A stretch of 64,000 nucleotides of DNA. Source: Rheinheimera texasensis DSM 17496. Lineage in GTDB: Bacteria; Pseudomonadota; Gammaproteobacteria; Enterobacterales; Alteromonadaceae. How positions within the stretch are numbered: the stretch's first letter is position 1; every line of letters begins with the position of its first letter. Position numbers and translations under genes: made by a program. Of this stretch, positions 4,090-37,742 are shown piece after piece. The stretch covers positions 806,001 through 870,000 of the forward strand of contig NZ_JONU01000007.1 in the NCBI RefSeq assembly GCF_000711985.1. Direction: 5' to 3'. A model generated the notes under the pieces. That model searched no databases. It saw nothing but the letters and a program-made list of their open reading frames with translations, and was not told the DNA's origin.

Positions 4090-5553
4090 ATGAAAAAAAC
4101 CAGCCTCGCTTTAATCATCTCTGCAGTTTGTTACAGTCAGCTTGCGCACGCTGAAGGTTATAAACTGTTTGAACAATCCGTCAGCGCCATGGGTAACGCC
4201 TACGCCGGCCGTGGTGCCCAAATCACCGACGCGACTTTAGTGCATTCCAACCCTGCCGCTATTACTCGACTAGACGGCTCACAACTGGCGGGCGGTTTGA
4301 ATCTGATCCACGCTGAGACCCGGTACAACCAGGTCAGCGCACAAAGTGCCAACGGCTCACCCGTTATTGGTCGTGCAGATGGCAAAAATAGTTTGAACGA
4401 AGCCGTGCCTTTTGTGTTTTACAGCACGGAGCTTAATGACAAGTTCAGTGTCGGCACTGGTTTTTATGTGCCATTTGGTTTGTCTTCGGACTATCAGGAC
4501 GATTGGGCCGGCCGTTATTTTGCCGACGAAACCGCGATAGAAGTGTTAGCCGTCACGGCCGTCGCCGCTTACAAACTGACAGAGCAGTGGTCTGCAGGTA
4601 TCGGGATCAATTTAAACCACGCTGAGGGCACACTCTCCAAATTTAAAGACCATAGCGGCCTGTGTGAACTGGGTACCGGCATCAATCAGCTGTACAAAGC
4701 CGATGTCTATAATCCGCTGCTGTGTCAAAGCCACTATTCTGTCACCGGCGATGATTTAGCTGTTGGCTATAGCCTGGGCTTGCACGGTCAGTTGACGCCA
4801 GCACTGCGTGTCGCTGTGGCGTATCACAGTGCAGTAAAGTTTAACTTGCAGGGTGATTCAGAAATCACCAACACCCCGATCACCGGGGCGCAAGTGGCCG
4901 GCAACAGCAATTTTATTGTGGTGAGCCCAACGCTGCCGGCGATTAGCAAACAAACTGGCAAGCTTGCGACAAATCCACTTGCAATTGAAGCCAGTCAGTT
5001 AGCGTTGACCACGCCGGCGAGCCTCGCACTGAGTCTGGATCATCAGCTCAATACAACCTGGTCCTGGCAAGCCAGCCTGAGCTGGACCATGTGGAGTGAT
5101 TTCCGCTCTATCGACATCATCAGCACCGCCGATACGCCAAGTATTTCCCTGTCGACACAACAGCCACAAAATCTCAACAGCACCGGTTATATCGGCTTTA
5201 TTCCGGAACATTGGCGCGACAGCGTTTCCGTGGCTGTGGGGCTGAGCTGGCAGCAGCAAAAAGACCGGATGTTCAAAACCGGCCTCGCTTATGATGAAAA
5301 CCCGATTGAACAATCGCACCGCACAGCGCGGGTGCCAACCAACGACCGTGTTTGGTGGACTTTAGGCATGAACCAGCAGCTAAGTGCACGCTGGAGTCTG
5401 GACCTTGCAGCGGGCTGGATGTGGATGGATGCATTGAATATTCGCGAACGCGAATACAATGTGCAGGAAGTTGCTTTGTATAAATCAGGCCTCAGCGCAC
5501 ACTATCGCAATGACGCCTGGTTGCTGGGCGCACAGCTGAACTACCGGTTCTGA
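4090..5553 (+). CDS. fadL: FadL/OmpP1/TodX-family outer-membrane transport protein
   Basis: This 487-residue outer-membrane beta-barrel imports long-chain fatty acids or other hydrophobic compounds. It has a cleavable signal peptide (cut after AHA, about residue 21). The mature N-terminus carries the FadL hatch region: GYKLFEQS, then MGNAYAGRGA and SNPAAITRLDG, the conserved NPA motif. It ends in aromatic LNYRF, the usual C-terminal beta-signal of a barrel. Length fits the family (about 420-480). It is a single gene with its own terminator at 5583-5613. The lipid link fits other genes in the window (desaturase at 15420-16496), but the substrate is not certain. Confidence 0.9.
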   Translation: MKKTSLALIISAVCYSQLAHAEGYKLFEQSVSAMGNAYAGRGAQITDATLVHSNPAAITRLDGSQLAGGLNLIHAETRYNQVSAQSANGSPVIGRADGKNSLNEAVPFVFYSTELNDKFSVGTGFYVPFGLSSDYQDDWAGRYFADETAIEVLAVTAVAAYKLTEQWSAGIGINLNHAEGTLSKFKDHSGLCELGTGINQLYKADVYNPLLCQSHYSVTGDDLAVGYSLGLHGQLTPALRVAVAYHSAVKFNLQGDSEITNTPITGAQVAGNSNFIVVSPTLPAISKQTGKLATNPLAIEASQLALTTPASLALSLDHQLNTTWSWQASLSWTMWSDFRSIDIISTADTPSISLSTQQPQNLNSTGYIGFIPEHWRDSVSVAVGLSWQQQKDRMFKTGLAYDENPIEQSHRTARVPTNDRVWWTLGMNQQLSARWSLDLAAGWMWMDALNIREREYNVQEVALYKSGLSAHYRNDAWLLGAQLNYRF

Positions 5554-27243: not shown

Positions 27244-30200
27244 TTGTCACCGCAACTTCCTCTTGAAAACATTCAGTTTGAAAATTACCGGGAACAACCA
27301 GCTGCGATGCCTCCGACTGAACCGGCTGTGGTGGTACAGCGGCGTTCTTTAATTCCGGTGTTATTGCTGTTGTTGCTAGCCGCTTCGGCTGTGCTTGTCG
27401 CTTTTGAGATGCGCACTGCGTATTACAGCGCCAAACCAATCAGCGACTATGCGAAAACGCTCACTTATCAATTACAAAATGCACCAGCCAGCCGGGTCAT
27501 CTATCCAGGTGCCGGCCCTTTTGACGAACGTCATGGCTACACCAAATTACCGGATTTATTAGCCCGCTTACAGGAGCGCGGTTTTGTCATCCGTGCCCAG
27601 GCCGAATTCTCGCCGGCAATGCAAGGTTTTGCGGCACAAGGGTTTTTCCCACCGTATCGGGAAAAAGTCCAAAGCGGGTTGTTTTTAGCTGATTGTCGCA
27701 ACGACACCATTTTTGATTTTAATTACCCGCAACGGGTCTATCAGCATCCACAACAAATCCCGTTGCTGGTTGCCCATAGTCTGTTATTTATTGAAAACCG
27801 CAACCTGCTGACCATCCCACCACAAGCCAACCCGGTGATGGACTGGCCACGGTTCGTGATGGCGGCAGTCAGTCAGGTTGGCAAAGTGCTGGCCATTGGC
27901 GGTCAGTCGGCCGGTGGCTCGACGCTTGCGACCCAAATTGAAAAATTCCGCCACTCGCCAATGGGCCTGACCCAAAGCTTTGAAGACAAAGCCATTCAGA
28001 TCATTTCCGGCACTATCCGCGCTTATCAGCACGGCCCGAACACCCAGGGCGTACGAACCCGGATAGTACAGGATTATCTCAATACGGTGCCGCTGTCATC
28101 CGCGCCCGGGCATGGCGAAGTCCACGGTGTCGGCGATGCGTTATATGCCTGGTTTGGCACTGATTTTAACCGCGCCAATACGCTGCTGGCACAGCCGGAA
28201 CAAGCGGAAACTGCCACCGAGCGTGCACGTTATTTCCGCCAGATGCTGTCGCTGATGATTGCCCAGCGCCGGCCTTCTTATTACCTGCTGCAAGGCCATG
28301 CTGATTTGGAAGAGCTGACCGACAGCCACATCCGTTTGCTGGCGCGCGCCGGCATTATCGATGCGTCACTGCGCGACAAAGCGTTGAGTGAACAACTGAC
28401 TTTTGTCCGGTTACAGGCGAACAAAGCTAAAGATGAGGCCGACAGCCGCAAAGGTATTAACTCAGCACGGCTGCGGCTTGGTAATCTGCTGAATCAGCCA
28501 ATGTATGACCTGGACCGGCTGGATTTGAATGCGCACAGCACTTTACACGGTGAGGTGCAGCAAAAAGTCAGTGCTTATTTAAAAAGCCTGGCAAATCCGA
28601 ATACCGCCGCACAGCATGGCCTGATTGGTGAGCGGCTGTTGTCCTCCTCACGCACCGGTGATGTGCTCTATAGCTTTACTTTGTTTGAGAAAACCGCCGA
28701 CGGTAACAGAGTGCGGGTACAAACTGACAGTACTGATCAGCCGTTTGATTTAAACGAACACAGCAAACTGGAGCTGGGTTCTACAGCCAAACTGCGGGTG
28801 CTGGCCAGCTACCTGGAAATTATCGCCGAACTGCATCAGTCCTTTGTCGACGAACTCCCCGACAGCCTGCTGACGATGGATATCGCACCTAACGACCATA
28901 TCACGCGCTGGGCGGCCAATTACATGGCGACCACTGCTGATCGCAGCCTGCCAGCGATGTTAGAAGCTTCGCTGGAACGCACATACTCTGCCTCACCGGC
29001 GGAACGTTTTTTCACCGGCGGTGGCCTGCAGGTATTTAACAACTTCAATAAAGATGAAGACGGTAAAGTACCGACCATTCGTCAGTCATTGCAGCAATCG
29101 CATAACCTGCCGTTTGTCCGCCTGCTGCGCGATATCGTCAGCTACGCCAGCAGTTATCAGACACAAGGCAGTACATCGTTGTTGCTGCGCGCCGACAATG
29201 ATCCAAAACGGGAAGAATATCTGCGTAAGTTTGTCGACAAGGAAGGCAGCGAATTTCTGCGCCGCTTCTTCCGCAAGTATCAGCAAAAGCCGATGGACGA
29301 GCGGCTGGAAACCTTTTTTGATGGTCTGAAACAAACGCCGGATCGCCTCGCGGCCGTGCACCGCTATTTGTTACCAGACGCCAGTTTCACCGATTTCGCC
29401 ACTTTTTTGCGCAACAAACTGCCGGACAGCGACAAGCTGACCAATAAAAAACTGCAGGATATGTATGCGCAATACGGCCCGGGTAAGTTTAGCCTGCCGG
29501 ATCAGGGTTATATCGCCGGCGCCCACCCGCTGGAACTCTGGGTGCTGAATTATCTGAACAATCACCCGCAAGCGACGATGAAAGAAGTGATTGAAGCCAG
29601 CGCCGAACAGCGTCAGCAGGTCTATCGCTGGTTATTTAAAACACCGAACCGCAAAGCACGCGACGCCCGCATCCGCATCATGCTGGAAGTTGAAGCCTTT
29701 ACCGACATTCATCAGCGCTGGGCCAAACTGGGTTATCCGTTTGATCACTTAGTACCAAGCCTTGGTACTGCACTGGGCAGCTCGGGCGACCGCCCTGCTG
29801 CGCTCGCTGAATTGATGGGTATTATCCAGAATGATGGTATGCGTTTACCGACCATCCGCATCGATAGCCTGCATTTTGCTGCGCGGACCCCATATGAAGT
29901 GCAACTTGGCTTTAATGCCAGCGCCGGCGAGCGCGTGATGAGGCCGGAAGTAGCACGGGCACTGAAAAAAGCCCTAGGACAAGTGGTTGCAGACGGCACA
30001 GCACGGCGCTTAAACGGCAGTTTTGTCAAAGCGGACAGCTCACCGTTGCAAGTCGGCGGCAAAACCGGTACCGGTGATAACCGCGTGGCGACACAAGTGA
30101 TCCGTGGCAAAACAGTGGCATCAACCGCCACCAGCCGTACCGCGACTTTTGTGTTTTATTTAGGTGACAGTTATTTCGGTACCCTGACCGCTTTTGTACC

Positions 30201-30327
30201 AGGAAAAGGTGCTGATGATTTCAGTTTCACGTCTGCCCTGCCGCTGCAGGTGCTTAAAGGCATGGCGCCTATCCTGCGGCCTTATGTAGTCAAAACCAGC
30301 CCAATGTGTCAGCCGGTGCAGCGTTAA
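27244..30327 (+). CDS. Divergent class A penicillin-binding protein (transglycosylase/transpeptidase)
   Basis: This protein of up to 1027 residues polymerises and cross-links peptidoglycan if active. A cytoplasmic N-terminus and one transmembrane helix (about 36-57) precede a GT51-like domain with IENRNLL (putative catalytic Glu near 183, where the family usually has ED) and GGSTLATQIEK (about 223). The transpeptidase part has STAK (SxxK, about 510), SHN (SxN, about 618) and KTGT (about 939). The spacing from SHN to KTGT is unusually long because of a helical insertion. The start is TTG 27244 or ATG 27307; neither has an ideal ribosome site. It is larger and more divergent than PBP1a/1b. Confidence 0.82.
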   Translation: MSPQLPLENIQFENYREQPAAMPPTEPAVVVQRRSLIPVLLLLLLAASAVLVAFEMRTAYYSAKPISDYAKTLTYQLQNAPASRVIYPGAGPFDERHGYTKLPDLLARLQERGFVIRAQAEFSPAMQGFAAQGFFPPYREKVQSGLFLADCRNDTIFDFNYPQRVYQHPQQIPLLVAHSLLFIENRNLLTIPPQANPVMDWPRFVMAAVSQVGKVLAIGGQSAGGSTLATQIEKFRHSPMGLTQSFEDKAIQIISGTIRAYQHGPNTQGVRTRIVQDYLNTVPLSSAPGHGEVHGVGDALYAWFGTDFNRANTLLAQPEQAETATERARYFRQMLSLMIAQRRPSYYLLQGHADLEELTDSHIRLLARAGIIDASLRDKALSEQLTFVRLQANKAKDEADSRKGINSARLRLGNLLNQPMYDLDRLDLNAHSTLHGEVQQKVSAYLKSLANPNTAAQHGLIGERLLSSSRTGDVLYSFTLFEKTADGNRVRVQTDSTDQPFDLNEHSKLELGSTAKLRVLASYLEIIAELHQSFVDELPDSLLTMDIAPNDHITRWAANYMATTADRSLPAMLEASLERTYSASPAERFFTGGGLQVFNNFNKDEDGKVPTIRQSLQQSHNLPFVRLLRDIVSYASSYQTQGSTSLLLRADNDPKREEYLRKFVDKEGSEFLRRFFRKYQQKPMDERLETFFDGLKQTPDRLAAVHRYLLPDASFTDFATFLRNKLPDSDKLTNKKLQDMYAQYGPGKFSLPDQGYIAGAHPLELWVLNYLNNHPQATMKEVIEASAEQRQQVYRWLFKTPNRKARDARIRIMLEVEAFTDIHQRWAKLGYPFDHLVPSLGTALGSSGDRPAALAELMGIIQNDGMRLPTIRIDSLHFAARTPYEVQLGFNASAGERVMRPEVARALKKALGQVVADGTARRLNGSFVKADSSPLQVGGKTGTGDNRVATQVIRGKTVASTATSRTATFVFYLGDSYFGTLTAFVPGKGADDFSFTSALPLQVLKGMAPILRPYVVKTSPMCQPVQR

Positions 30328-30384
30328 AAACAATGTGCGGCCAGTCGCGTGATTCGGCTTGCCGCAATGCCTTGTATCAGCACG

Positions 30385-30939
30385 TCAGGACGCAAACTCC
30401 TGTTCACTTCGCTGTGCAATCTGGCGCAGTGTTCCCAACACCGTTTCGCTACCGGGCAAATACCAGCAGTTTAACTGCGTTTTTTTCCGTAACGCAGGCG
30501 GTGCATCGCTAAAGCCGAGACGTATATTCAATTGCAGTGCGCCCTGGTTTCGCGGGTCAAAGCACACCAGAACTACAGGGTGATGATATTGCTCAAAGGC
30601 AATTAAGCACAAAGCCGCTAGTGCCTGATCTGCGATGCCCTGACCACGGGCCTCTGGCACCAGCATGATACCAAGCTCGACGGGCGCTGCTGCAACACCT
30701 GATCGAAGCATTGACAGTAATCCCAAGGGTTTGCCGCGCAGACTGACACGATAATAATGAGTGCAGACAGAACTTTGCATCGCAGTTAAACAATTTTCAA
30801 ACTGCTGGATGATTTCTGGCGGGGTTTTGACTGGTGCGATGTATTGCATGGTTCTGGCGTCGTGAAACAGCCTAATAAACCATGATTGGTCCTCTGATGT
30901 CAGTGGGGTAATTTGCAGCGGGGATGAAAATGCAGTCAA
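30385..30939 (-). CDS. GNAT-family N-acetyltransferase
   Basis: This 184-residue protein has the GNAT fold pattern: LQITPLTSEDQSWFIRLF at the N-terminus, the acetyl-CoA loop EARGQGIADQAL (about 118-128), and RNQGALQLNIRLGF in the C-terminal part, as in RimJ/RimL-like acetyltransferases. The start is TTG 30939 with GAG upstream; no ATG gives the complete domain. The gene lies 62 bp downstream of the borosin methyltransferase on the same strand and could be in the same transcript. Its substrate is not known; a role in the borosin pathway is speculation. Confidence 0.82.
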   Translation of the reverse strand: MTAFSSPLQITPLTSEDQSWFIRLFHDARTMQYIAPVKTPPEIIQQFENCLTAMQSSVCTHYYRVSLRGKPLGLLSMLRSGVAAAPVELGIMLVPEARGQGIADQALAALCLIAFEQYHHPVVLVCFDPRNQGALQLNIRLGFSDAPPALRKKTQLNCWYLPGSETVLGTLRQIAQRSEQEFAS

Positions 30940-31001
30940 TTTATTTGCTCAGGTTTATGGTCACTTGCCGGCGCTGGCAGTTAACAACTGTGATTTCTGC
31001 A

Positions 31002-31784
31002 TTACGACTGTTGCAGAGCCTGCAGCCGCGCCAGCATCAGATCGTTTTTCTGTAAGGGAAGCGCGGGAGGCACCACCAGTGTTGACTTCAGCGTCAAGCG
31101 GGCTTTGGGCAGATCACCAAGCGATATCCATTCCATCCGCGGTTGTTCAAACGGCATACTGGCTGCTTCATAAATCACCACCTGATGTTCTGGCGGGTAC
31201 TGTGGTGAAAGCAACTCCACCAGCAATTCCAGTTCTGCTTCGCCCGTGTCAAAACGGGCGATAGTGCGATCGCCAGCCAGGGTGATTTGCCACAACACCA
31301 AATAGGCACTGGGGTCTATCTTGCGCTGATAAAACATAAACTGACTGGCTTCATAATACTGGCAACCGACCCGACCGGGGTCGATCCCTAAATCGGCGTG
31401 CAGGCAATCAGCAGCGCTGATACCAGCTAACATCTGCGCTTCATAGCCTTCCTGCCGTGCCAGCTCTATCACTTTATGCGGTGCATAGGCAAAAACGCCG
31501 GGATGCCCATAAAATGCGCCAACGACAAACTTGCCGGCCCGCACTTCAGCCAGCATCAGCTCAATCATTTTCTGATATGTTTGGTGACGTGACTTCCCCA
31601 GTTCGTACAAAGGCGCAAAGCTGCGGACATCCGGGTTCATTGTTTGCAACCATTGCTCGGTGATGCCATCAGTCACCGCAGCAAATACCACATCTGCAGC
31701 CTGCAGATGGCTTTTCGCTACCGGAGTCATATGAGCGCCAAGCATGATACCAGTGCCTACAATGACGATTCTGCCCTTTTGCAT
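31002..31784 (-). CDS. Split-borosin peptide backbone alpha-N-methyltransferase (SonM-like)
   Basis: This 260-residue enzyme belongs to the tetrapyrrole (precorrin) methylase fold but matches the borosin methyltransferases SonM (Shewanella) and OphMA (fungi), which methylate backbone amides of a precursor peptide with SAM. Seen: SAM loop VGTGIMLGAH (about 9-18), the catalytic set Tyr60, Arg66, Tyr70 in YELGKSRHQTY with the same spacing as OphMA Tyr66/Arg72/Tyr76, the motif AEVRAGKFVVGAFYGHPGVF (79-98), and YEASQFMFYQRKIDP. No core peptide is fused at the C-terminus, so it is the split type. The ATG at 31784 is chosen because the upstream frame is not conserved. The partner peptide gene is divergent at 32028. 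Confidence 0.9.
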   Translation of the reverse strand: MQKGRIVIVGTGIMLGAHMTPVAKSHLQAADVVFAAVTDGITEQWLQTMNPDVRSFAPLYELGKSRHQTYQKMIELMLAEVRAGKFVVGAFYGHPGVFAYAPHKVIELARQEGYEAQMLAGISAADCLHADLGIDPGRVGCQYYEASQFMFYQRKIDPSAYLVLWQITLAGDRTIARFDTGEAELELLVELLSPQYPPEHQVVIYEAASMPFEQPRMEWISLGDLPKARLTLKSTLVVPPALPLQKNDLMLARLQALQQS

Positions 31785-31832
31785 AAGTCCGTTCCGTTCC
31801 AGCCAAATAACTTGATGATTAACATAGCGTTG

Positions 31833-31845
31833 TTGCAAAGTGCAA
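31833..31845. promoter_or_regulatory. Inverted repeat in the borosin divergent promoter region
   Basis: The 13-nt inverted repeat TTGCA-AAG-TGCAA lies 49 bp from the methyltransferase start and about 180 bp from the precursor start. It is a candidate operator. In the rest of 31785-32027 I saw no convincing sigma-70 promoter and no gene. Confidence 0.3.
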
Positions 31846-32027
31846 GCTGTATATGCCGATGAAAAAAAGCTGAACCTTTTAACACTGAAAACTGCGAAAC
31901 CTCTTTTCAGCCGGGTTATAACCTGTTTTACTGACAAGTGTAATAACTTGCCGCATGAAACGGTCTCGGCGGGACTGCAAACACCAGTAGAGACTCTCCT
32001 CCAAGTAATCATCATAAGGATTATGTT

Positions 32028-32294
32028 ATGTCAAAGATCATTGAGGTACTCGAACAGCTCGCTATAAGCACCTTGCCCCAATCTCAGCGCCATGGAGAGA
32101 GGCGCCGCCTGGCTGAGCAAACGGAACTACCTGCTGCAATCGTTGAATCGATCGCTACGGCTGATTTGTCAGGCTTAATCCAGACGGTTGGTTTAACAGG
32201 TCGCGGTTGTTTTATCATCGTGGCACCAGACGAGCCTGCTCAACCAGATGACGACGAACCTGAAGACCCTCCGGTGAAAATTCGTCGGCACTAA
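32028..32294 (+). CDS. Candidate split-borosin RiPP precursor peptide (SonA-like)
   Basis: This 88-residue peptide has the plan of a split-borosin precursor. Residues 1-55 are helical, and the part LPAAIVESIATADLSGL aligns in pattern with the SonA recognition domain (borosin-binding domain). After TVGLTGRG comes a short hydrophobic beta-type core CFIIVA (61-66), the likely site of N-methylation, comparable to the SYLVIS stretch of SonA. An acidic, Pro-rich tail (67-82) ends in a basic KIRRH. SonA lacks such a long tail. AAGGA stands seven bases before the ATG. The methyltransferase is divergent, 243 bp away, and a diguanylate cyclase gene starts 4 bp downstream. The assignment is by pattern and context. 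Confidence 0.8.
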   Translation: MSKIIEVLEQLAISTLPQSQRHGERRRLAEQTELPAAIVESIATADLSGLIQTVGLTGRGCFIIVAPDEPAQPDDDEPEDPPVKIRRH

Positions 32295-32298
32295 GGTC

Positions 32299-34089
32299 AT
32301 GTCTGTGGTCAATTACCGTAAGTTGCTACAGAAAGTCAGTTCAATTTGTTTACTGAGTCTGTCTTGCTATGTGGCTGCAGCTTCTAAACCTTTTATTGAC
32401 CAACTGCTCAATGCCGCAGATGAACAACGCAGCGCTGACCCTGTACGTTACGCAGATTTAATGCAGCAGCTGCGGCTTGCCGCAGCTGAAATGGATGAAC
32501 AGCAACGCGACTTTCTAAACTTTCTAACGGCCTATCAGGAAGCCTACAAAGATAGTTACCAGAGCGCCGAAATAAAGTTCAAAGCACTGATGGTTCCGAA
32601 CAAACCGGTGTTAATCCGATTTCGGGCTGCGCTGACCCTGTCTAATGTACAGATGATTCGCAGGCAATTTCTGGAGGCTTTTTCCAATCTCTCTTTTGCA
32701 ATGGCGCTCATGCCTGACATTGACGATGTAAAATGGCGTAATCAGGCCTATCTTAGCGCTGCATCGATATACTCGGAAGCAGAACTCTATCAGGAAAGCC
32801 TCGATTCCTTGCAGCTACTGGACACGACCGTATTGTCGCCCCGCGACCAGTGCATCAACCAATATTTAAATTTAAAGAGTAAACATGCATTAGGTGTTGC
32901 CCAAACAATTCCGGAAATCGAAGCGATTTCCGCGCAATGCGCCGATGCGGGCGAAATCATGATATCGCAAGCCAGCAATACACACGCAGCTTGGTATTAT
33001 CTAACCAATCAATCGCCAAAACTCGCGCTTGATTATCTGCACGCGCGCTTACCCGAAGTAGAAAAAACCGGATACAACCGGTTACTGATTGATGTTTATC
33101 ACCTGATTGCCCAAGCGCATGTCGCGCTATCCGACTACCCGGGCGCACTTGCTGCAATTGCAAAGCTGGAAGCTGCGGCGAAAAGTCTACAAAACAGCAG
33201 ACCGGTAGTTGCTGGTTTGAAACTAAAAGCACTTGCATTAGCACAGGAAGGCAATTTTCAGGCCGCTTACACCACCCACCAACAATATTCCGACGCTGAG
33301 CGCGCGATGCGGGATGAACACTCCAACCGCCAGCTGGCTTATCAACTCGCAAAAGGCGAATTGCTGAAAAAAAATCAGCAATTAAAACTGATGAAAGAAG
33401 AGTTGCGCGTCATAGAACTGGAAAATCAACTCAAAAAACAACAAGCTGAGCGCGACAGTTTGTATATAGGCCTGCTTAGTTTTGCCAGTATTTTACTGGT
33501 GTATATCACCTATCGCTTGGTCCGCCGGCACCGCTTTTATAAACTGGCCGCCGAAAACGACGGCCTGACCGGGATCAGCAACCGGCACTTTTTTGACTTG
33601 CAGCTGCAAAAGCAGGTGAAACGCTGCAAACAGCAGCAAAAATCATTGGGTGTGATTGTCTTTGATTTAGATTTTTTTAAATTGATCAATGACAACTACG
33701 GCCATGATGTGGGCGATAAAGCGTTGCAGGCTACAGTACGCATCTGTAATCATTTTATCCGTAGCGGCGATATTTTTGGCCGCATTGGTGGCGAGGAGTT
33801 TGCCATCGCCCTGCCGGACTGCCAGCCGGATAAAGTATTGATGCTGGCGGAAATTTGCCGCGATGCGATTGAACAGCTCGATTGCAGCGAATTCCAGAGC
33901 GGGCTCAAACTCACTGCCAGCTTTGGCGTCTCTTACAGCCAAATCAGCGGCTATCAAACGACGGAGCTGATGCGCCATGCTGATCAGGCGTTGTACCTTG
34001 CCAAATACAACGGCCGCAACCGCGTTGAAAGTTATGATCAAATGCAGCCCCATCCGGGACGGCCGCTGATCAATACACCACTGCGTTAG
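32299..34089 (+). CDS. Membrane diguanylate cyclase with periplasmic TPR-like sensor domain
   Basis: This 596-residue protein makes c-di-GMP. It has a signal peptide or anchor (about 1-28), a long helical TPR-like periplasmic region (about 30-350), a coiled coil (about 350-388), a transmembrane helix (about 391-408), and a GGDEF domain. The active site reads GGEEF (about 496), with the inhibitory I-site RSGD five residues upstream, so both catalysis and product inhibition are expected. It starts 4 bp after the precursor stop, with AAGG from the gap as ribosome site, so the two are in one operon. The TPR part may sense a peptide; that is inference. Confidence 0.92.
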   Translation: MSVVNYRKLLQKVSSICLLSLSCYVAAASKPFIDQLLNAADEQRSADPVRYADLMQQLRLAAAEMDEQQRDFLNFLTAYQEAYKDSYQSAEIKFKALMVPNKPVLIRFRAALTLSNVQMIRRQFLEAFSNLSFAMALMPDIDDVKWRNQAYLSAASIYSEAELYQESLDSLQLLDTTVLSPRDQCINQYLNLKSKHALGVAQTIPEIEAISAQCADAGEIMISQASNTHAAWYYLTNQSPKLALDYLHARLPEVEKTGYNRLLIDVYHLIAQAHVALSDYPGALAAIAKLEAAAKSLQNSRPVVAGLKLKALALAQEGNFQAAYTTHQQYSDAERAMRDEHSNRQLAYQLAKGELLKKNQQLKLMKEELRVIELENQLKKQQAERDSLYIGLLSFASILLVYITYRLVRRHRFYKLAAENDGLTGISNRHFFDLQLQKQVKRCKQQQKSLGVIVFDLDFFKLINDNYGHDVGDKALQATVRICNHFIRSGDIFGRIGGEEFAIALPDCQPDKVLMLAEICRDAIEQLDCSEFQSGLKLTASFGVSYSQISGYQTTELMRHADQALYLAKYNGRNRVESYDQMQPHPGRPLINTPLR

Positions 34090-34114
34090 ATAACAGTGCC
34101 GGCGGTTTTCACGT

Positions 34115-36538
34115 TCAGGATAAACGCAGAAATCCGTCCGGCACTTCATCCGCGAGAAAATGCTTTAACTGCTCATCATTCAATGGCCGGGCAAAATAAT
34201 AGCCCTGGCCCACATCACATTTGTGCTTTTTCAGCAGCTGCAGCTGGGCACGGTTTTCGACGCCTTCGGCCACCACTGTTAATTCCAGCTTCTGTACCAT
34301 GGCGATGGTAGAGACAATAATTTGATAGTCCGCATCGTTTTCCAGCATGCCAAATACAAAGGATTTATCGATTTTGATAATGTCGACCGGCATTTGCTTT
34401 AAATAACTCAGGCTGGAATAGCCGGTGCCGAAATCATCGATGGCAAAACAAAAACCTATAGCTTTAAGCTGGCGCATCATCTGCAGCGTGGTTTCAATAT
34501 TCTTCACCAGCGTCCGTTCGGTCAGTTCAAGCTCAAAATGGTTAGCCGGCAGGTCAAACTCATCCAGCAAGCCCTGCAGCACTTCTGGTAACTGCGGATC
34601 CAGAAACTGACCTGCTGATAAATTGATTGCAATTCGGATATGGCGATAACCCTGACCAACCAACTGCTGCGCCAGTTCAAAACTGCGGCGGAACACCCAA
34701 TAGCCGAGTTCAACCATTTGCGGCGAATTTTCCAGCACGCCGATAAACTCGTCCGGTGTCACCATCCCCCGCTGCGGATGCGACCAGCGCAGCAGTGCTT
34801 CAAACCCCACCAGCCGGCCGGTAGATAACTCAATCTGCGGCTGCAGCACCAGATAAAACTGTTGCAGGCGGATGGCATCTTTGATGTCGCTTTCCAGCTG
34901 AATGCGGCTCGACAGTCGCTGATACATTTGCTGGTTATAGCCGGTAAAGGCGGCACCGCCCTGCTCTTTGGCGTTATACATCGCAATGTCAGCCTGGCGA
35001 ATTAAATCATCTGGTAAGGATTGCGGATCAGACGACATGGCCACGCCGATACTGCCGGAGACGTAAAACAGCTGGCCATTCAGCTCCACCGGCTGCTGAA
35101 ACGCCTGCAGAATACGGTTAGCGACTTCAGCCGGGTGCTCGTCGGACATCACGTCCGGCAGCACCAGCACAAATTCGTCGCCACCGAAGCGGGAAGCCAA
35201 ATCAGTGGGCCGGATACAGGTTTTCAGCCGGTTGGCGGCTTCGACCAGCAACAAATCACCTGCTGCATGGCCCTGGGTATCATTGACCAGCTTAAAATTA
35301 TCCAGATCGAGAAATAACACAGCGATGCGCCCTGGATGCCGCTCCAGCGCCGCCAAATATTTTTTCAGCTGGAACAACAACATATTACGGTTTGGTAAGC
35401 CGGTCAGCAGGTCATACATCGCGATGTTTTCCAGCTCACGGGTATTGTGTTCAATCTGCTGATGCAGATGTTCCAGCTCCAGGCTCAGTTGATTAGCCGC
35501 GTTACCGAGCACGTCCAGTTCATCGGAGAATACCAAAGGCGGCTTTTGACTGTGGTCGCGAAATTCACGGAACTGGCGTTGCGCCAACAGCGGTAAATGC
35601 CGAGCCATCTGCAGTAAACGCAGACTGAGCCGCTGCGTACTGAAATAAATCAGCACGGCCACCAACACAAAACAAACTAAGGCAAAAATCACAATCTGGT
35701 ACTGATAGTCGGCTTTGGTGCGGGCAAATTTATTGGTGTCATCGACCAGCGCCAGATAATAGCCCTGACCATTGCCAACCAGCGGCAGGAAACTGATCAG
35801 ATAGTGTTCGGTGCCGATCTGCACCGGCAGGCCATTTTCGATGGCCTGCTTGACCGTTGCTTCAGCTGGCAACGCCGAAAACACTGAGGCCATCCGGCTG
35901 GCATTGGATAAACTTAACAGCTGTAACTCACGCGCAGGTCGCTCCAGATCACCTTCAATCCGCACTATCGCCACTTCCGATCCCACGCCTTGTTTCAGCG
36001 ATGCCAGTACATCCAGCAACGTGGTCGACAACGCGGCCACCGCGACATCACCGCTTTGGTTCTGCACCGGCACCAGCACCAGCTTGGCGCAATGCTCAGC
36101 ACAGACGATTTCACTGAAAGGTTGCAGTTCCATCAGCACCTGCTGCACCGCCTGCCGCACCCGGCCCGGCACTTCCGGTGTCGAGGCATAGAGCAACACG
36201 CCGTCTTTATCAAATAACCACTGATGCTCGACATTCAGATGCAGTGCGATGGTGTCATAGTGGCGCGCCAGCGCTGTGGCAAAAGCGCTGAAATCGGCTT
36301 GCTCGCGGATATTGGCCATATCAGTGAAGGACTCAAGCCAGCTGCGCAGCTGGTTTTCCAGCAGCATATTCAGCAGTTCAAATTGTTGCTGGCGCAGCTG
36401 TAACTGCTTTTGTTGCTGCAAACGGAAGTCCTGCTCCATTTTTACTATGGCAAAACTGGTGAGCACCACCGTCATGAGCAGCAAAGCGCTTAAAGTCAGC
36501 GCCAGAATTTTCCAGGGTAAACTTAAAAATGGCCGCAT
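34115..36538 (-). CDS. Dual GGDEF-EAL c-di-GMP enzyme with periplasmic sensor
   Basis: This 807-residue inner-membrane protein has TM1 (about 8-30), a periplasmic Cache-like sensor (about 40-275), TM2 (about 278-298), a HAMP-like linker, a GGDEF domain (RFGGDEF, with I-site RPTD) and an EAL domain (FEALLRW, ELTE, IDDFGTGYSS, KIDKSF, AEGVE). Both catalytic motifs look intact, so it could make or break c-di-GMP. It starts 4 bp after the barrel gene stop, so the sensor is the last gene of an operon with a PstS-like protein and an outer-membrane barrel, which suggests joint sensing and uptake. Confidence 0.93.
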   Translation of the reverse strand: MRPFLSLPWKILALTLSALLLMTVVLTSFAIVKMEQDFRLQQQKQLQLRQQQFELLNMLLENQLRSWLESFTDMANIREQADFSAFATALARHYDTIALHLNVEHQWLFDKDGVLLYASTPEVPGRVRQAVQQVLMELQPFSEIVCAEHCAKLVLVPVQNQSGDVAVAALSTTLLDVLASLKQGVGSEVAIVRIEGDLERPARELQLLSLSNASRMASVFSALPAEATVKQAIENGLPVQIGTEHYLISFLPLVGNGQGYYLALVDDTNKFARTKADYQYQIVIFALVCFVLVAVLIYFSTQRLSLRLLQMARHLPLLAQRQFREFRDHSQKPPLVFSDELDVLGNAANQLSLELEHLHQQIEHNTRELENIAMYDLLTGLPNRNMLLFQLKKYLAALERHPGRIAVLFLDLDNFKLVNDTQGHAAGDLLLVEAANRLKTCIRPTDLASRFGGDEFVLVLPDVMSDEHPAEVANRILQAFQQPVELNGQLFYVSGSIGVAMSSDPQSLPDDLIRQADIAMYNAKEQGGAAFTGYNQQMYQRLSSRIQLESDIKDAIRLQQFYLVLQPQIELSTGRLVGFEALLRWSHPQRGMVTPDEFIGVLENSPQMVELGYWVFRRSFELAQQLVGQGYRHIRIAINLSAGQFLDPQLPEVLQGLLDEFDLPANHFELELTERTLVKNIETTLQMMRQLKAIGFCFAIDDFGTGYSSLSYLKQMPVDIIKIDKSFVFGMLENDADYQIIVSTIAMVQKLELTVVAEGVENRAQLQLLKKHKCDVGQGYYFARPLNDEQLKHFLADEVPDGFLRLS

Positions 36539-36542
36539 AAGA

Positions 36543-37742
36543 TCAGAACCAGTACATCAGTTGCACCGCCCAGATATCATGCTGACGATTGCGGTTAATT
36601 TCGATAGCAGGCACCACATTGGGCCCCAATCGTCCGGTGCCGGTGATCCAGTGATACTCCAGCTTCAGCCGCAAATTACGGTCAAGCTCCTGTGTAATGC
36701 CAAGGCCCCAATCCCGCTGATAACCGAAATACCGCGCGATCAGTCCACCGCTTTGCAGCGGCAGCAAAGCACCACCGCGGTCATCTTTATTGGCGGTGTA
36801 CCAGTCATAACTGGCATAGAGCCGGGTATTTTCCGACCAGTTATAACTTCCAAGCAAAAATGCCCCCTGTGCAAACTGATTGCGGTTAAAGCCGGGCAGA
36901 TAAAAACCACGGGCAAATACCCGTTCCTGCATCAATTCGCTGGATAGCTCCCATAATTCAGCGCTGTAGCGCCAGTTAGCCATCACCCGCTGAACGGTAA
37001 ACTTACCGTCAAAAAACAGGTCAGGTTGTGCCTGACGATATTCAAAACCGGAATCGAGTAAAGAGATGCCCCACTGCGTTTGGCTATTTGCAGGCCGGAA
37101 AAACAGTGTCGCCTGATGCACGTACTTTTGCTCGGTATCGCCTTGTAGCTGAGTTGCAATGACGCGACGCGCCATTTCTTTGCTGATTGGGATAGCGCCA
37201 TAGCTCCAAATCCATTCAAACTCACCGATGGCTGTGGTATTGGTCGATTGCAGCGCAATGCCATCAGAACCGACCGCAATATCGCGAAAAGCGTCAAAAT
37301 ACACCGACTGCGGCAGCACTATCATCGGCCTGGTCATCGGTACATCGCGGGTGCTGGAATAAAGCCAATGCATATTCTTAAAGCGGCCGGCATATAAATT
37401 CAGCTGCCAGTCCAGGCTATTAATCGCGGTCCAGTTCAGGAATAAATAATCCACGCGGCCACCCGACGCATAACGATTGCCGCCATCGAGGTACATCAGC
37501 TGCCCAGACAGACGTAAATCGGCACTGAACTGGTAACTGCCATTGACGCCAAATTCAGTCAGTTCAGTACTGACGGCGCCGTCATCATTCACAAAATTGC
37601 TGTCACTGGCCTGCATCAGCCCCTGCGAGACAAAACCATGCCAGTGCCAGTTATCAGCCGCAGCAGCATCAGACAGACCACATGTTGCCAGCAGGCAAGC
37701 GCTAAGGCCTGATTGGAATGACTTTAACAACCTGAGTTTCAT
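36543..37742 (-). CDS. Outer-membrane beta-barrel protein, putative porin
   Basis: This 399-residue protein has a signal peptide (cut after AAA-A, about 29) and a beta-barrel with many Trp/Tyr strands, ending in the typical terminal strand AVQLMYWF. The start WHWHGFVSQGLMQASDSNF resembles porins found next to GGDEF/EAL genes in marine gammaproteobacteria. It overlaps the upstream PstS-like gene by 41 bp in another frame and is followed after 4 bp by the GGDEF-EAL gene. The three genes are one transcription unit. The transported substrate is unknown; phosphate or another anion is suggested only by the neighbour. Confidence 0.8.
   Translation of the reverse strand: MKLRLLKSFQSGLSACLLATCGLSDAAAADNWHWHGFVSQGLMQASDSNFVNDDGAVSTELTEFGVNGSYQFSADLRLSGQLMYLDGGNRYASGGRVDYLFLNWTAINSLDWQLNLYAGRFKNMHWLYSSTRDVPMTRPMIVLPQSVYFDAFRDIAVGSDGIALQSTNTTAIGEFEWIWSYGAIPISKEMARRVIATQLQGDTEQKYVHQATLFFRPANSQTQWGISLLDSGFEYRQAQPDLFFDGKFTVQRVMANWRYSAELWELSSELMQERVFARGFYLPGFNRNQFAQGAFLLGSYNWSENTRLYASYDWYTANKDDRGGALLPLQSGGLIARYFGYQRDWGLGITQELDRNLRLKLEYHWITGTGRLGPNVVPAIEINRNRQHDIWAVQLMYWF

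Follow-up and report, generated by a model that had tools for sequence, protein, structure and literature searches.

The window analysed here, a stretch of 64,000 nucleotides from Rheinheimera texasensis DSM 17496, contains a locus in which sequence comparison identifies three linked components: a SonM-type peptide backbone N-methyltransferase, a SonA-type precursor peptide and, beginning 4 nt downstream of the precursor gene, a diguanylate cyclase with a TPR sensor. The linkage of the three recurs in at least ten families. Our favoured explanation, to which somewhat better than even chances are given, is that the locus both produces and senses a short peptide with an N-methylated backbone, the peptide being the ligand of the probably periplasmic TPR receptor; binding and signalling are inferred, as there are no binding, expression or methylation data. 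The split borosin pair is itself of a known kind, and it is the receptor link that forms the interesting part. This link is strongly supported as linkage and moderately supported as function. The features concerned are collected in Table 1.

Table 1. Features of the borosin locus in the window, and aspartyl protease genes at related loci (given as locus:position).
Feature	Position	Strand	Basis
GNAT acetyltransferase	30385..30939	-	Acetyltransf_3 3e-14; 3' of methyltransferase, same strand
SonM-type peptide backbone N-methyltransferase, 260 aa	31002..31784	-	phmmer against SonM, active-site mapping, TP_methylase
Putative borosin precursor, 88 aa	32028..32294	+	iterated profile search, gap-free SonA alignment, model
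Helical leader (borosin-binding domain), residues 1-54	32028..32189	+	four helices in model; weak SonA/OphMA fold matches
Core CFIIVA, residues 61-66	32208..32225	+	position by SonA alignment; methylation at I63 and V65 is prediction only
Acidic, proline-rich tail, residues 67-88	32226..32291	+	sequence
TPR-sensor diguanylate cyclase, 596 aa	32299..34089	+	begins 4 nt past precursor stop; GGDEF 2.8e-44; linkage
TPR sensor, residues 30-380, conserved Cys185 and Cys214	32386..33438	+	model, Rap-like fold, Cys columns
Predicted membrane helix, about residues 387-405	33457..33513	+	hydropathy
GGDEF domain, residues 419-575; RxxD inhibitory site and GGEEF active site, residues 488-501	33553..34023	+	Pfam 2.8e-44, motif check
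Aspartyl protease, other loci	L037:4604, L049:8091, L054:13002, L057:14068, L060:7525, L074:5258, L090:5783; fragment L101:6533		

Methyltransferase and precursor of the split borosin pair

The start of the methyltransferase gene is most likely the ATG at 31784, as judged by alignment with SonM, and the 337-residue open reading frame found there is an upstream extension of the 260-residue protein. The protein matches the Pfam family TP_methylase (E 4.7e-25), and when it is used as a phmmer query against the PDB, SonM chains are the top matches (E 2.3e-72), followed by the fungal OphM, OphMA and MroM/MroMA (E 1e-47 to 1e-54). Of 258 residues aligned with SonM, 119 are identical. An earlier note on this DNA had called the enzyme SonM-like, and had named clustering with cobalt-precorrin methylases as an outcome that would refute it; this outcome did not materialize, the best cobalt-precorrin methylase, CbiF, reaching only E 0.017. 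The name of the Pfam family and NCBIfam matches to the YabN and CobA families, all far under their cut-offs, are what remains in favour of a corrin or siroheme methylase lying beside an unrelated small ORF. Against these stand the SonM and precorrin methylase E-values, three other TP_methylase matches in the same genome that are all stronger than the window enzyme, and the conservation of the precursor family beside the enzyme. The corrin or siroheme identity was rejected on this evidence, and the explanation as a whole retains next to no credence.

The proposed catalytic set of Tyr60, Arg66 and Tyr70 aligns with Y58, R67 and Y71 of SonM. Furthermore, F98, E145 and W165 align with F99, E146 and W166, while L176 and Q178 of SonM are replaced by I175 and R177. 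Tyr60, Arg66 and Tyr70, together with the stretch Y92-G93-H94-P95-G96, are invariant in all 28 aligned sequences, and the AEVRAGK and YGHPGVF motifs reported earlier were likewise found. According to the main text of PMC8429565, the R67A mutant of SonM has at most trace activity, and kcat is decreased 15-fold in Y58F and 84-fold in Y71F. A borosin enzyme is present in 21 of the 22 genomes searched from the genus of the window, the window genome included.

No credible sequence match to the precursor was obtained from Pfam, NCBIfam or the PDB. An iterated profile search nevertheless joins the 88-residue protein to small proteins encoded near the enzyme, SonA among them, and homologues of the protein accompany the methyltransferase at 23 of the first 26 loci and at 55 of all 66 loci read. 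A chance small ORF was rejected on the basis of these homologues and of the helical model, in which four helices extend to residue 54 and the remainder is extended (mean pLDDT 79). When this model was submitted to Foldseek, the first eight PDB matches, and 14 of 37 in all, were OphMA-, dbOphMA- or SonA-type chains, although every E-value exceeded 1. The assignment of a helical borosin-binding domain thus rests on the agreement of sequence family and helices, with SonA and OphMA folds ranking first at E > 1. By these comparisons, the gene is a member of the same precursor family as SonA, one that evolves fast.

Alignment with SonA requires no gap across residues 1-65 and places the hydrophobic core in the SonA register, so that F62-I63-I64-V65 falls on Y62-L63-V64-I65 of SonA. 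In the main text of PMC8429565, the methylation sites of SonA are given as L63 and I65. Methylation of the window precursor is predicted, on this alignment and without any test, at I63 and V65. Many precursor relatives display a common pattern, in which a core cysteine is followed by hydrophobic residues, P-A-E/D and an acidic tail; the tail is missing from SonA and from a number of other precursors. The division into helical domain, short CFIIVA core and acidic tail that had been proposed for the 88-residue protein agrees with the model and with the abundance of Pro, Asp and Glu in the tail. CFIIVA is also new in the sense intended, being unlike the SonA core, but core sequences vary widely among the relatives, and a novel core is therefore usual for this family. 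At one related locus, a single TPR-GGDEF gene is preceded by a tandem of three precursor genes whose cores differ (L046:6106-7685).

Together, the separate encoding of methyltransferase and precursor, the membership of the enzyme in the SonM/OphM family with its active-site residues conserved, and the helical leader identify the locus, at the level of sequence, as a type IV split borosin of an already known kind, in which alpha-N-methylation of the core remains untested. The pair of separate SonM- and SonA-family genes claimed in the earlier note is thus present, and the gene pair probably makes a backbone-methylated peptide. Type IV and the SonM-SonA system are described in the main text of PMC8429565, and types IV-X are covered in PMC11285071 and PMC11395268. 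With SonM-SonA of Shewanella oneidensis MR-1 (SO1478, SO1479), the window shares separate enzyme and precursor genes, catalytic residues, a helical leader and a gap-free register to the core. In addition, in the genome taken as MR-1, a TPR-GGDEF cyclase gene begins directly past sonA, just as at the window precursor. The two differ in the core (YLVIS in SonA), in the acidic tail, which SonA lacks, and in orientation, since in the window the enzyme and GNAT genes diverge from those of the precursor and cyclase, unlike in SonM-SonA. The fungal borosins of OphMA type belong to the same enzyme family (about 1e-50), yet carry their core fused to the enzyme; the window methyltransferase has no fused core, as had been claimed, its core residing in a separate gene.

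The divergent layout, which the earlier note had included in its description of the locus, is real in the window but does not define the system. In sister species (L043-L047), the genes lie on one strand beside the same flanking gene; the divergence is therefore only local and was rejected as a defining trait. Similarly, the interval 31002-32294 does hold both claimed genes, but leaves outside two conserved partners, the TPR-GGDEF and GNAT genes; the former, a receptor-like gene that the earlier note had overlooked, has the greatest bearing on function. The recurring partners of the enzyme in the first 26 loci are the cyclase (24), the precursor (23) and the GNAT protein (22), while genes further out vary by genus.

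Across all 66 loci, a GNAT gene lies within 5 kb of the enzyme in 29, and a pepsin-like aspartyl protease (Pfam Asp, D[TS]G motifs) lies near it in eight, each with a GNAT gene and one being a fragment. This protease, which is missing from the window and for which no signal peptide was seen at the five starts inspected, is a candidate for the enzyme that removes the leader. None of the genes recurring near the methyltransferase was recognised as an exporter. Within 29000-37000, no riboswitch or other Rfam RNA matched at gathering score. A promoter scan returned 2 sites (3.5 expected) and a terminator scan 10 terminator-like sites (4.8 expected, sd 2.6), and no conclusion rests on either. An 807-residue GGDEF-containing ORF, apparently GGDEF-EAL by reading, occupies 34115-36538 on the minus strand and faces the TPR cyclase gene.

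Linkage of the TPR sensor to the borosin enzyme

With the window sensor as the sole query, 49 matches were obtained in 118 related genomes, 46 of them within 5 kb of a borosin methyltransferase. Enzyme and sensor occur together in 35 of these genomes, the enzyme alone in 13, the sensor alone in one (a weak, partial match) and neither in 69. Three enzyme rows with E > 1e-5 were left out of this count, which therefore contains 48 rather than 50 enzyme-positive genomes. Counted by enzyme row, 45 of 64 have a sensor nearby in the single-sequence search. A sensor profile (A1) was also applied to 345 genomes of the order: among the matches listed, 122 of 150 lie within 6.5 kb of the enzyme, as do 95 of the best 100, and a sensor was found at 101 of 126 enzyme loci. 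As the profile was built from enzyme-linked sensors, its counts lean towards linkage, whereas those of the single-sequence search do not. Scoring was confined to the top few candidates in each genome, and the profile has at least 150 matches.

In the 66 loci that were read, a TPR protein lies within 5 kb of the methyltransferase in 56. Furthermore, 52 of 61 precursor genes are followed on their own strand by a TPR gene at a distance of at most 400 nt, a count that includes small overlaps arising from over-long starts. These loci are related to one another and are not a random sample: 26 were the first enzyme matches and two further sets of 20 were picked, many of them for a seemingly missing sensor or for lying outside the order. 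The 25 of 126 enzyme loci that apparently lack a sensor are partly a limit of the search, since 12 of the 15 that were read (L083-L087, L101-L110) do have a TPR protein, the exceptions being L083, L101 and L110.

Ten of the 66 loci are without a TPR gene. At eight of them (L083, L092-L096, L100, L110), no precursor was found either. Borosin-like enzyme domains lie within ORFs of 1174 residues at L100 (ORF at 4840) and 638 residues at L110 (ORF at 600), and these enzymes are possibly of other borosin types. At L101, two near-identical precursor genes follow the enzyme and the sensor is down to a 42-residue GGDEF remnant (L101:7455-9470); this is a decaying system. At the tenth, L007, the contig sequence ends early, and a sensor was found in that genome (G018) by the single-sequence search. 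Conversely, of the 28 listed sensor matches far from an enzyme, the 12 that were read (L111-L122, 13 ORFs) have neither precursor nor enzyme nearby, and 11 of these 12 genomes carry an enzyme elsewhere, which is counted in favour of the ligand explanation.

Architecture of the sensor and its outputs

The TPR part near the enzyme is joined to a GGDEF domain at 40 of the 66 loci, to a histidine kinase at 13 and to nothing at four, where it forms proteins of 351-393 residues; one locus (L091) has two kinds of TPR protein. Pfam confirmed HisKA-HATPase in all four kinase-type proteins submitted (L080, L084, L086, L088), two of which also have receiver domains, while the other kinase calls, L085 and L087 included, rest on a local profile from six such proteins. 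Scored with the GGDEF-sensor profile, kinase-type sensors reach only 28-156 bits (median 46 versus 317), and they may have been separately recruited, though a profile built from them recovers sensors of the TPR-only and GGDEF types. Small genomes can carry tandem arrays of up to four TPR-only genes, as at L072:6417-11221, where four with export-like starts lie beside enzyme and precursor.

In the window cyclase, the GGEEF active site expected of a diguanylate cyclase is intact, as is the RxxD inhibitory site. The active-site motif is kept in 48 of 51 GGDEF-type proteins and absent from three, which argues that the signalling output is under selection. The N-terminus is signal-peptide-like by hydropathy. 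By this measure alone, 69 of 73 TPR proteins have an N-terminal hydrophobic segment and all 64 with an output domain have a predicted membrane helix; the sensor is thus probably periplasmic. Two cysteines (Cys185 and Cys214 in the window cyclase) form the only invariant columns in 25 sensor sequences, and the pair is kept in 50 of 51 GGDEF-type and seven of nine TPR-only proteins, but in only one of 13 kinase-type proteins. A periplasmic disulfide between Cys185 and Cys214 is inferred.

Pfam detects no TPR in the window cyclase, although TPR families do match its relatives. The sensor model is an all-helical array (pLDDT 92.5, pTM 0.86), and ten of its first 11 Foldseek matches in the PDB are Rap proteins, all in entries whose titles mention pheromone or peptide (8rsv, E 1.2e-6; 4gyo; 4i9c), with NprR further down the list. 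The likeness to the Rap-type receptor fold (TM about 0.6) is tempered by the generic nature of TPR folds: LGN ranks sixth, and the TPRs of human APC/C and APPBP2 exceed Rap in TM-score. The modelled fold fits peptide binding, with no unrelated-TPR control and with binding untested.

In the Rap-Phr and NprR systems (RRNPP) of Gram-positive bacteria, the receptors are cytoplasmic, and the peptides are unmodified and re-imported; in Rap-Phr, the peptide gene adjoins the receptor gene. The window-type loci share the TPR-helical sensor fold and the adjacency of the two genes, but differ in a sensor that looks exported, in a peptide that is probably N-methylated, and in GGDEF or kinase outputs. RcbB and other TPR-GGDEF cyclases of Vibrio have the same architecture as the window cyclase. 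In the available text on these cyclases, RcbB is repressed by its own TPR and relieved by a partner that is another TPR protein, and the word "methyltransferase" does not occur.

Peptide ligand or other explanations

That the pair lies directly beside a receptor-like gene, in the window as in many related bacteria, points to the peptide as a signal read by the cells. In the mechanism inferred, the leader would dock on the methyltransferase, which would methylate I63 and V65. Leader and tail would be cut off the core by a protease, the GNAT protein perhaps adding an acetyl group, and the peptide would reach the periplasm or the medium. By binding in the TPR sensor groove, it would alter cyclic-di-GMP synthesis; in relatives, the TPR sensor would signal to a histidine kinase, or would act alone as an exported protein. 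The working would be Rap-Phr-like, except that the peptide would be modified, the receptor periplasmic and the output a second messenger or a kinase.

Co-variation was compared in 34 GGDEF-type loci (37 less three near-identical), in which mean identity is 0.56 for the enzyme, 0.45 for GGDEF, 0.22 for the sensor and 0.23 for the precursor. With enzyme and GGDEF distances partialled out, sensor distances correlate with those of the core (r 0.32, permutation p 0.0005) and of the leader (r 0.39, p 0.0005). With enzyme and sensor partialled out, the correlation of GGDEF distances with those of the core is r 0.22 (p 0.002), and with those of the leader r -0.04 (p 0.67). Since adjacent genes share a history, this co-variation is support and not proof.

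Several observations count against a ligand: TPR folds are generic, orphan sensors exist without precursor or enzyme, the core also correlates with GGDEF, and no exporter was recognised. Moreover, the kinase-type sensors score low on the GGDEF-sensor profile and 12 of the 13 lack the Cys pair, and three of 51 GGDEF-type proteins lack the active-site motif. Periplasmic TPR cyclases are also reported in Vibrio parahaemolyticus without mention of borosins in the parts of PMC12282931 available. An ordinary type IV pathway could instead yield a secreted metabolite, with the TPR cyclase or kinase sensing something else, such as envelope state or environment, and co-regulating production or lifestyle but not binding the peptide. 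In favour of this, biosynthetic clusters commonly contain regulators, the GNAT and protease genes beside some loci look biosynthetic, there are orphan sensors that have no precursor, and the title of a 2023 paper announces a bacterial borosin natural product. This explanation is considered unlikely, though it is the more serious of the two alternatives to a ligand. A ligand fits better than a general regulator, given that 52 of 61 precursor genes have the sensor gene directly behind them and that the TPR part is retained across differing outputs.

The TPR part could also handle the precursor or peptide during processing or export, as a scaffold, chaperone or transport adaptor, with the output domain reporting on that process. 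The tandem TPR-only exported proteins and the leader-sensor correlation are in keeping with such a role, and TPR domains often bind peptide motifs (PMC12282931). It is nonetheless thought improbable, as every TPR protein with an output has a predicted membrane helix and signalling domains, and nearly all GGDEF-type proteins keep their active-site motif. The peptide-ligand explanation is thus retained for the window. Its extension, that gammaproteobacterial split borosins are backbone-methylated pheromones whose cognate periplasmic TPR receptors output to cyclic-di-GMP, a phosphorelay or a soluble binding protein, could equally well prove right or wrong.

The link between borosins and TPR/GGDEF proteins is not named in the borosin literature searched, where "borosin" was not found together with "diguanylate cyclase" or "tetratricopeptide"; the main genome-mining papers were not covered, and earlier notice is possible. 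GGDEF, TPR, receptor and signal are absent from the main text of PMC8429565 (the supplement was not covered), in which Miller et al. (2021) state that no type IV pathway had yet been tied to a final natural product. One bacterial borosin product has been reported, to judge by the title of the 2023 paper. With a receptor-like gene after the precursor in at least ten families, the function of the peptide becomes directly testable in a tractable laboratory strain. If the ligand explanation is true, it would add modified-peptide signalling into cyclic-di-GMP to Gram-negative biology, and would provide a natural set of peptide-receptor pairs with many cores and three output types. Gram-negative bacteria would then have a RiPP-based equivalent of Rap-Phr, and SonM-SonA of S. 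oneidensis would gain a function.
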